DNA from: Ideonella oryzae
GTDB lineage: Bacteria > Pseudomonadota > Gammaproteobacteria > Burkholderiales > Burkholderiaceae_C
Assembly: GCF_024055665.1 (NCBI RefSeq)
Contig: NZ_JAMXMC010000002.1
Location: 124,001 to 188,000, forward strand
Direction: 5' to 3'
DNA length: 64,000 nucleotides
Notes under the pieces: generated by a model
The model's input: the letters and a program-made list of their open reading frames with translations, nothing else
Database searches by the model: none
What the model was told of the DNA's origin: nothing
Position numbers and translations under genes: made by a program
In this document: in pieces, positions 37,220-41,349 of the stretch
Layout of the letters: each line of letters starts with the position of its first letter
Position numbering within the stretch: position 1 is the first letter of the stretch

Positions 37220-37266
37220 ATTTTAGGCTGCGGTGCCATCGGGGCGCCCGGCCCGGCGCCTAAAAT
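37220..37266. promoter_or_regulatory. Inverted repeat forming divergent -10 boxes (lysS and polysaccharide operon)
   Basis: ATTTTAGGC (37220-37228) and GCCTAAAAT (37258-37266) are an exact 9-base inverted repeat. The minus-strand arm gives TAAAAT pointing to lysS and the plus-strand arm gives TAAAAT pointing to wbpA. The -35 regions are not recognisable. Confidence 0.45.
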
Positions 37267-37325
37267 TGCGGGTTTTGATCGCTGCCCCGACCGGCCGCAG
37301 GGCCTGTGCGCCGGGGTGCTCGTCC

Positions 37326-39576
<2,251 letters not shown>

Positions 39577-39586
39577 GGCCCCCGCC

Positions 39587-40168
39587 ATGAACGTCACCAT
39601 TCACCCCAGCGCCATCGTCGACGAGGGCGCCCAGCTGGGCGAGGGCACGGCCGTCTGGCATTTCAGCCATGTCTGCGCCGGGGCCCGCATCGGGCCGCGC
39701 TGCTCGCTGGGGCAGAACGTGTTCGTCGCCAACGACGTGGTGATCGGCGCGGGCGTGCGCATCCAGAACAACGTCTCGGTCTATGACGCGGTGACGCTGG
39801 AGGACGATGTCTTCGTCGGCCCCAGCGCGGTGTTCACGAATGTCTTCAACCCGCGTTCGGCCGTGCCCCGCAAGCACGAGTACCGCCGTACGCTGGTGAA
39901 GCGGGGCGCCACCCTGGGCGCCAACTGCACCCTCGTCTGCGGCACCGCCGTGGGCGAGTACGCCTTCATCGGCGCCGGTGCGGTGGTCACCAAGGACGTG
40001 AAGCCCCATGCGCTGATGACCGGCGTGCCGGCCCGCCAGACCGGCTGGATGAGCCGCCACGGCGAGAAGCTGGCGCTGCCGGTGGACGAGGCCGCCGACA
40101 TGGAGGCTGCCTGCCCGGCCACCGGTGAGCGCTACCGTCTGCAGGGCGGTCGCCTGGAGGCCCTCTGA
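39587..40168 (+). CDS. wbpD: UDP-sugar 3-N-acetyltransferase (WbpD/WlbB)
   Basis: Transfers acetyl from acetyl-CoA to the 3-amino group made by WbpE, giving the diacetamido uronic acid. The 193-residue protein is a left-handed beta-helix enzyme with hexapeptide repeats from about residue 8 to 140, including [16 protein letters not shown] and [21 protein letters not shown]. The ATG at 39587 gives the standard MNVTIHPSA start, while the longer open frame overlaps wbpB. wbpE follows after 2 bases. Confidence 0.93.
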
Positions 40169-40170
40169 CC

Positions 40171-41349
40171 ATGCAGTTCATCGACTTGAAGGCGCAGTAC
40201 ACCTCGCTCAAGACGGACATCGACGCTGCCATCCAGCAGGTGCTGGACCACGGTCAGTACATCATGGGGCCGGAAGTGGCCCAGCTGGAGGTGGCCCTGG
40301 CGGCCCGCGTGGGCGTGGGCCACTGCGTCACCGTGGCCAGCGGCACCGAGGCCTTGCTGATCGCGCTGATGGCCCTGGACCTGCAGCCCGGCGACGAGGT
40401 CATCACCAGCCCCTTCACCTTCGCCGCCACGGCGGAGGTGATCGCGCTGCTGGGTGGCGTCCCGGTGTTTGTCGATGTCGAGCCCGACACCGGCCTGATC
40501 GACGCTGGGCGGATCGAAGCCGCCATCACGTCCCGCACCCGGGCGCTGATGCCGGTCAGCCTGTACGGCCAGGTGCCGGACATGGAGGCGATCAACGCCA
40601 TCGCGGCGCGCCGTGGCCTGCCGGTGATCGAGGACGCGGCCCAAAGCTTCGGTGCCAAATACACCATGGCCCCCACGCCATCCTCAGGGATGGCTGCCCC
40701 CCAAGGGGGCTCGCCCGCTTTGGGGCGGCCCGGCGGCGGGCGGGTCGGGCACAGCTGCGGTGTCTCGACCATCGGCTGCACCAGCTTCTTCCCCAGCAAG
40801 CCGCTGGGCTGCTATGGCGACGGTGGGGCCCTGTTCACCGACGATGCCCGCCTGGCCCAGGCCGCGCGGGAGATCCGCGTGCACGGCCAGAGCGCGCGCT
40901 ACACCCACACCCGCGTGGGCGTGGGCGGGCGCATGGACACGATCCAGTGCGCGGTGCTGCTGGCCAAGTTGCCCCGGCTGGACTGGGAGCTGCAGCGCCG
41001 CCGCGAGCTGGGTGCGCGCTACCACGCGCTGCTGGCCGATGTGAACGTGGGCCTGCTGACCGTGCGCGAGGGCCGCGACAGCGTCTGGGGCCAGTACACC
41101 GTGACGGTGGCGGACCGGCCGGCCGTGCAGGCGGCGCTGAAGGCGGTAGGCATTCCCACGGCCGTCCACTACCCGCGCCCGCTGCACCAGCAGGTGGCCT
41201 ACGAGCGCTTCGCGCCCGCGGGCGGCTGCCCGGTGGCCGAAGAACTGGCGCAGCAGGTGATGAGCCTGCCGATGAGCCCCGACCTGGGCGAGCCCGACCA
41301 GGACCGCGTGGTGGCGGCGCTGGCCGCGGCCGTGGGCCGGCGCGGCTGA
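40171..41349 (+). CDS. wbpE: UDP-3-keto-GlcNAcA aminotransferase (WbpE/WlbC) with in-frame insertion
   Basis: A PLP-dependent DegT/DnrJ enzyme that places an amino group at C3 of the 3-keto uronic acid, using glutamate. The PLP lysine is K210 in SFFPSKPLGCYGDGG, and VIEDAAQSFGA is conserved. At 392 residues it is about 30 longer than typical WbpE. The surplus is one block of about 26 Gly/Pro-rich residues between Y164 and S195, where relatives have only about 4 residues. The DNA of this block is palindromic and unlike the surrounding gene. Frame is kept, so the enzyme may still work, but the loop lies close before the active-site lysine. Confidence 0.9.
   Translation: MQFIDLKAQYTSLKTDIDAAIQQVLDHGQYIMGPEVAQLEVALAARVGVGHCVTVASGTEALLIALMALDLQPGDEVITSPFTFAATAEVIALLGGVPVFVDVEPDTGLIDAGRIEAAITSRTRALMPVSLYGQVPDMEAINAIAARRGLPVIEDAAQSFGAKYTMAPTPSSGMAAPQGGSPALGRPGGGRVGHSCGVSTIGCTSFFPSKPLGCYGDGGALFTDDARLAQAAREIRVHGQSARYTHTRVGVGGRMDTIQCAVLLAKLPRLDWELQRRRELGARYHALLADVNVGLLTVREGRDSVWGQYTVTVADRPAVQAALKAVGIPTAVHYPRPLHQQVAYERFAPAGGCPVAEELAQQVMSLPMSPDLGEPDQDRVVAALAAAVGRRG
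40663..40752. repeat. In-frame palindromic element inside wbpE
   Basis: This stretch codes for the extra Gly/Pro-rich block of wbpE. It contains GCCCCC-CAA-GGGGGC (40696-40710) and a second nested inverted repeat, CGCCCGC (40712-40718) with GCGGGCG (40736-40742). Intergenic repeats with runs like these are familiar from Burkholderiales genomes, so it looks like a mobile palindromic element caught in a coding sequence. No other clear copy is in this window. Confidence 0.6.

Follow-up and report, generated by a model that had tools for sequence, protein, structure and literature searches.

A palindromic block within a WbpE-type aminotransferase gene of Ideonella oryzae is very likely one copy of a dispersed structured element that also lies in frame within other genes

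Small palindromes that are read as part of a protein are known from several bacterial systems. Rickettsia palindromic elements (RPE; PMC10969869, PMC3733652) lie between genes and also in frame in unrelated conserved genes, whose open reading frame (ORF) is kept. REPs carrying GTAG or CGTC tags are small palindromes of 20–40 bp, mainly intergenic, some of which lie wholly within ORFs, and many of the genes hosting these intragenic REPs serve DNA synthesis and repair (PMC3733652). The RU sequences of enterobacteria are small, mobile and MITE-like and are also found intragenically (PMC2759123). Of the other reports that we consulted, a survey of stem-loop families describes Cod-2 repeats as very small (PMC2267715; from the name, we take the host to be Corynebacterium), another finds that Rhodoferax ferrireducens has the most motif pairs among its genomes (PMC5217627), and a third concerns CRISPR only (PMC2755013). 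The principle of coding palindromes is therefore already known from RPE and intragenic REPs. The family described below is nevertheless likely to be new, within the literature searched: neither the family nor its sequence strings were found in the open-access literature, a search that leaves out most subscription journals, and Acidovorax, Burkholderia, Delftia and Leptothrix are not mentioned in the main text of PMC3733652. It remains possible that the motif pairs of R. ferrireducens include the element.

We analysed a 64,000-nt stretch of I. oryzae DNA (the window), in which a preliminary description had pointed to a block at 40663–40752, inserted in frame in a WbpE aminotransferase gene and interpreted as a REP-like palindrome domesticated as protein, similar in principle to RPE. 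The presence of an in-frame block was confirmed. The gene is intact and encodes 392 aa, and its product matches Pfam PF01041 (E 6.3e-111), although it falls below every NCBIfam equivalog cut-off. The best solved relative, PDB WbpE, aligns in two pieces, residues 2–165 and 194–383, and the break is the block. Thirty residues separate FGAKY from SCGVST, as had been claimed. We take K210 to be the PLP lysine, by analogy with the family. The insert thus adds a Gly/Pro/Ser-rich loop while the ORF stays open; this is shown for the ORF, and neither enzyme activity nor benefit to the host has been shown. A suggested surface-loop position found no structural support, a single-sequence model having a mean pLDDT of 35.7, too low to use. 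Upstream of the gene, window positions 37233–40168 look like a nucleotide-sugar cluster, with ORFs whose translations resemble a UDP-sugar dehydrogenase, a WbpB-type oxidoreductase and a WbpD-type acetyltransferase. Coordinates are collected in Table 1. The nested inverted repeats named in the preliminary description (GCCCCC/GGGGGC and CGCCCGC/GCGGGCG) were all found, together with a further one that it had not listed (GCCATCC/GGATGGC), and the element proper, as delimited by a covariance model, spans 40669–40743.

Table 1. Features of the insertion-bearing gene and of its palindromic block (window positions)
Feature	Position	Strand	Basis
WbpE-type (DegT/DnrJ/EryC1 family) PLP aminotransferase gene, insertion-bearing	40171..41349	+	ORF; Pfam PF01041; split alignment to PDB WbpE
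Palindromic element, whole copy	40669..40743	+	covariance model match G000:C12:164669-164743, E 8.8e-10
Variable hairpin 1, arms GCCATCC / GGATGGC	40677..40694	+	inverted repeat, GCCATCC 40677-40683 and GGATGGC 40688-40694
Conserved core CTGCCCCCCAAGGGGGC	40694..40710	+	cross-genome conservation
Inverted repeat GCCCCC/GGGGGC	40696-40701/40705-40710	+	repeat search
Variable stem, 5' arm CGCCCGC	40712..40718	+	inverted repeat and covariation
Conserved loop TTGGGGCGGCCCGGC	40720..40734	+	cross-copy conservation
Variable stem, 3' arm GCGGGCG	40736..40742	+	inverted repeat and covariation
PLP lysine K210 codon	40798..40800	+	computed position; K183 or K184 in block-free orthologues

The comparison with orthologues of the same genus shows that the site exists in an empty state. 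The spacing between FGAKY and SCGVST is about 4 residues in all 11 same-genus orthologues retrieved (loci L006–L016), which are thus block-free. Eight of them have clean full-length ORFs, of 366 aa in five cases and of 364, 365 and 374 aa in the others; in these the PLP lysine is residue 183 or 184, compared with 210 in the window's gene. The net gain is therefore 26 aa, or 78 nt. The nearest relative, the WbpE of a sister genome (97% identity; G001, the window's own genome being G000), carries the block too. Had the block been ordinary sequence in all close orthologues, the preliminary claim would have been refuted; instead it is missing in 11 of the 12 other same-genus genomes with a close WbpE gene. 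No close orthologue was present in three further genomes (G002, G010 and G014; best E 8.3e-25 to 2.9e-35). Since the sister genome is filled and the other orthologues are empty, the insertion belongs to the G000/G001 lineage. These two genomes show 2 differences over the 84 nt of the insert and 50 over the other 1092 nt of the gene; two differences are too few for judging constraint. No WbpE relatives were found in viral contigs. In another genus of the same family, one WbpE (L005, genome G016) was seen to carry a smaller and different insertion, SGASGVARK, in the same turn, so that the turn possibly tolerates extra residues.

Could the block simply be an ordinary Gly/Pro/Ser-rich loop, expanded by slippage in GC-rich coding DNA and resembling a repeat by chance? 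Taken alone, the window copy gives some support to this view: the sequence is of low complexity and folds no better than its shuffles (RNA-fold z-score -1.24, with 22 of 200 shuffles as good). The palindromy of a single copy is indeed unremarkable for such GC-rich DNA, and the evidence that goes beyond chance is comparative. The copy matches an 81-position covariance model from end to end (E-value in Table 1), with the reservation that it is itself among the 28 sequences used to build the model. The same conserved core and loop recur in many copies of other genomes, intergenic copies are present in the window's own genome, and reversed-pattern controls gave none. Slippage is thereby all but excluded. 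We read the block as one copy of a dispersed structured palindromic element that inserted into wbpE and left the enzyme gene open, and we hold this to be very likely (probability about 0.88).

Copies of the element are about 65–85 bp long and are built alike: GCCCCCACG is followed by a variable hairpin, then by CTGCCCCCCRAGGGGGC and one arm of a variable stem, after which come the loop TTGGGGCGGCCCGGC (or TTCGGGCGGCCGGGC) and the arm that pairs with the first. In 105 distinct arm pairs, from copies collected regardless of their stem, 7.50 of 9 variable-stem positions were Watson-Crick paired; when the arms were re-paired 2000 times by shuffling, the mean was 3.64 (sd 0.14, maximum 4.11), without control for relatedness among copies. 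RNAalifold applied to 28 diverse copies returned the same hairpin, with 18 pairs of which 8 carry compensatory changes, one of these within the loop. A covarying structure is thus shown directly, and it indicates that the fold is kept while the stem sequence drifts. The Rfam 15 covariance models gave no match at E<=1 in 16 copy-bearing loci. We also considered, and dropped, the possibility that each copy takes its private stem from the sequence at its target site. It was hinted at by a GGGCGGG in the empty wbpE site of one same-genus genome (G008), and was abandoned because copies within a genome share stem subfamilies and because the isovaleryl-CoA dehydrogenase site described below lacks such an origin.

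Dispersal of the element is likewise shown directly. With at most one mismatch, the core CTGCCCCCCAAGGGGGC was recovered from 11 of the 12 genus genomes searched, and the reversed pattern from none. A strict core-plus-loop pattern was found in 133 of 200 genomes of the family, representing 102 of 141 genera, at up to 56 copies per genome (reversed control 0). Across the order it was found in 18 of 250 sampled genomes (reversed control 0): the window's genome, five of the six others of its family and 12 genomes from six other families. Within the genus, the strict pattern has copies in 6 of 16 genomes and only one in the window's genome, so that looser searches were required. The covariance model (E<=0.01) recovered 10 copies in G000, 8 in G001, 6 in G008, 2 in G013, 59 in G007 and 14 in G012; E-values are rough and 150 candidates were scored per genome, so these counts may be low. 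The presence of 10 copies in the window's genome, two of them in frame in genes other than wbpE, answers the objection that the element might have no other copy there. Loose-match scans across the whole window gave chance-level numbers, the wbpE site being the sole exact match. In a collection of named genomes, a narrow-pattern scan gave 0 copies and a broader pattern at least 119 stretches. Among 80 of these the best represented were Variovorax, Hydrogenophaga, Rhodoferax, Polaromonas, Ramlibacter, Xenophilus, Acidovorax and unclassified Comamonadaceae/Burkholderiales; Achromobacter, Bordetella, Castellaniella, Trinickia and Burkholderia had fewer, and one stretch, from a metagenome bin (L246), was labelled Desulfovibrionaceae.

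The wbpE insertion is far from isolated. Two sets of copies, with none in common, were classified by our own codon-score script, trained on few genes and later backed by family searches. In the first, 25 of 128 copies lay inside a read-through ORF (the wbpE insertion being counted in both G000 and G001); in the second, drawn from named genomes and stripped of copies within 260 nt of a locus end before counting, 26 of 125 did. Locus L004, whose insertion is the one seen in the window, was excluded from the frame count, leaving 50 genic in-frame copies among 252 examined, 20 sense and 30 antisense. Recurrent in-frame insertion in both orientations is thus shown. The genic share of about 20% is rough, since the sample is confined to strict-pattern copies. 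Family searches on 52 insert-bearing proteins (24 of the 25 from the first set, 24 of the 26 from the second and 4 extra; L004, L261 and L273 were left out) returned a known family every time, although in some proteins the match fails to bracket the insert (e.g. L088, L186, L207, L276).

The host proteins, some of whose names are our interpretation of family matches, are unrelated, in support of the preliminary claim that such repeats can spread through genes without breaking them. Hosts include RecQ (2), RecG, UvrA-type proteins, UvrD, NAD-dependent DNA ligase, RecJ, topoisomerase III (2) and HrpA-like helicases; as for the REPs of PMC3733652, several DNA synthesis and repair genes are hosts. 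Further hosts are MnmA, valyl-tRNA synthetase, isovaleryl-CoA dehydrogenase (2), methylcrotonyl-CoA carboxylase (2), DapC, kynureninase, cobyric acid synthase, anthranilate synthase, PEP carboxylase and several acyl-CoA enzymes. The likeness to RPE held as one of principle: here too, unrelated conserved genes have taken up the element in frame and kept their ORF. The element differs from RPE in belonging to another bacterial class, in its length (about 150 bp for RPE), in its fixed core and loop flanked by private covarying stems and in having genic copies in both orientations.

For two further genes, close relatives were shown to have the site empty. Six of the 10 model matches of the window's genome were classified and three are genic, in WbpE, phosphoglycerate kinase (pgk) and urocanase; others are intergenic. 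Alignments of the kinase and of urocanase to solved structures split in two at the insert, as does that of the isovaleryl-CoA dehydrogenase (ivd) of G008. The pgk site is filled in G000 and G001. It is empty in G008, and 8 further genomes of the genus lack the insert at their best-matching locus; the query slice ended just short of the insertion and the retrieved loci nonetheless spanned the site. The ivd site shows the reverse distribution, filled in G008 and empty in G000, G001, G012 and G013. We noted two phosphoglycerate kinase-like loci in G000 (G000:C27:335028-335579 and one on C29, the latter bearing the insertion). Redundancy is therefore possible, and some of the 8 empty pgk loci may be paralogues.

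Some sites are filled in more than one genome. As judged by eye, copies occupy about the same place in the same orientation in isovaleryl-CoA dehydrogenase (L052/L097), RecQ (L054/L156) and topoisomerase III (L103/L164), each time in different genera, and in methylcrotonyl-CoA carboxylase (L042/L187) of G008 and of an unclassified Burkholderiales bin. With such pairs in four genes, not every one of the 50 genic copies can be counted as an independent event. We see no reason to prefer independent insertion into permissive loops over target preference, transfer or shared ancestry, which account for the four pairs just as well. In a molybdopterin oxidoreductase, two Rhodoferax bins carry copies that lie a few residues from each other and point in opposite directions (antisense in L183; sense in L261, assigned without family search), which favours separate insertions into one tolerant region.

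The frame in which genic copies are read is strongly biased, and this bias is shown directly. The three frames were used 0/2/18 times by sense copies and 2/21/7 times by antisense copies, where about 7/6/7 and 9/11/10 would be expected from the stop-free frames of the 202 non-genic copies (p 1.5e-6 and 3.6e-4, respectively). One copy (L016/L069) was entered twice in this count and the few same-site pairs are not independent. The favoured in-gene peptides are SLPPEGA...LGRPGG and AGPPQG..APSGGS; the WbpE copy uses a minority frame. The simplest reading, which is an inference, is that copies would land in any orientation and phase and that those giving flexible, harmless peptides would persist; a phase bias of insertion itself is possible and not excluded. 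True domestication, in which the inserted peptides would be selected for improving or tuning their host enzymes, could draw support from this frame bias and from the four genes with about the same site filled in two genomes. However, the bias would be expected just as much from the loss of all but harmless peptides, the two differences between the G000 and G001 inserts are too few to reveal constraint, and the other same-genus wbpE genes that we read do without the block. We regard domestication as very unlikely. The wording "domesticated as protein" in the preliminary description thus exceeds the evidence: no gained function was shown, and a tolerated passenger peptide suffices.

Protein-coding palindromes, already described in Rickettsia and in certain enterobacterial and REP-bearing genomes, are found here at scale in Comamonadaceae-type bacteria: about one-fifth of the sampled copies are genic and in frame, close relatives have the corresponding sites empty, and several loops have been used repeatedly. 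The effect of selfish DNA on proteins, namely which sites and frames accept insertions and what these cost, thereby becomes testable by comparison. For annotators and structural biologists it is also a caution, such loops being potentially recent passengers.

Outside genes, the orientation of the element is far from random. Between co-directional coding flanks, 63 copies lie with the genes and 8 against; for other non-genic copies whose upstream flank scored as coding, the numbers are 46 and 13. These figures, the covariation of the stems and the presence in some stems (L070, L316) of a GGAGG before a likely start codon could point to a functional RNA module, a 3'-end or translation-linked regulator spreading by duplication, with genic copies as accidents. 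Against this, the 20 sense and 30 antisense copies inside genes do not depart significantly from an even split (p 0.20), and a genic share of about one-fifth is not predicted for a purely intergenic regulator. On balance we lean away from the RNA module as a rival to the insertion of a mobile element; it is compatible with mobility and possibly the other half of the story.

We then considered whether the element is a REP mobilised by a REP-associated tyrosine transposase (RAYT). Its REP-like size and palindromy, its intergenic and intragenic placement and the presence of Y1 transposase matches in 27 of 36 genomes searched would be in favour. Yet Y1 matches (E<=0.001) were no rarer where strict copies are lacking (14 of 18 genomes) than in 18 copy-bearing genomes (13 with a match), a set made up of 16 copy-rich genomes and the low-copy G000 and G001. 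This test is weak, since strict-negative genomes may hold looser copies. Moreover, five genomes with many copies (G128, G169, G181, G231 and G236) are Y1-negative, and the element is missing from all 12 Y1 loci examined, each about 2.8 kb long. Nor are the tags enriched at the ends of 251 copies (GTAG 6 left and 0 right, CGTC 4 left and 8 right) relative to a similar number of control flanks (GTAG 4/3, CGTC 11/13). A RAYT-driven origin is thus very unlikely. Like intragenic REPs, the element is a small dispersed palindrome, mostly intergenic (202 of 252 copies are not in frame in a gene), as expected of a REP; it is longer than the REPs of PMC3733652, without end tag and without any RAYT link that we could find. 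In the absence of tag and of Y1 association it is not a REP in the strict sense, and the "REP-like" label held only in part.

Terminal inverted repeats are absent, a mean of 3.7 of 12 end positions matching and none of 251 copies reaching 9 or more, and in this the element departs from the MITE-resembling RU of PMC2759123, which it recalls as a small repeat found inside genes. The GTTRRRY-type motif is the core of integron attC sites, and a core of this kind was seen in merely 3 of 251 copies. Visual inspection of the filled/empty pairs of wbpE, pgk and ivd revealed no evident target-site duplication. With no target-site duplication, terminal inverted repeat or transposase found, movement of the element is inferred from its distribution only.

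According to the insertion reading that we favour, an element of about 65–85 bp, widespread in a family of Burkholderiales, would have inserted into wbpE in the lineage ancestral to G000 and G001. The net addition of 78 nt, a multiple of three without stops and at a turn tolerating extra residues, would explain why the enzyme gene stayed open, and selection would keep only insertions with a harmless peptide. The element may move as a folded single strand acted on by an unidentified trans-acting enzyme, an inference put forward because recognition in trans of such a strand fits the covariation best. Covarying stems around a fixed loop similarly hint at an unidentified binding partner. A bolder reading, which we would neither defend nor dismiss at present, is that an undescribed family of mobile palindromes acts as a natural in-frame loop inserter across a family of environmental betaproteobacteria, in either orientation and by a route that is neither Y1-REP nor classical MITE. 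Only landings with harmless peptides, mainly the two named above, would survive, and the same permissive loops would be hit repeatedly in different genera.

Several further arrangements were seen among the copies. A second kind of element has the 5' module GCCCCCACGCT...CGCTGCCCCCCRAGGGGGC in common with the first, and a different terminal hairpin (GCGGACCGGC/GCCGGATCCGC) with its own variable outer stem; it was found at L002 (G000:C12:414307), L059 (G000:C12:5555), L036, L057 and L063, at several of these directly after a stop codon. Head-to-tail arrays of 2–3 elements, with a period of about 76–91 nt and the same or near-same stems, occur at L016, L056, L117 and L158 and on G120:C63, G223:C206 and G348:C1. 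Finally, some intergenic copies (L070 and L316, the latter at G008:C465:21975) have GACATG on both sides and bear their GGAGG in the 3' stem arm, a layout that looks as if the element had duplicated the start region of the gene.
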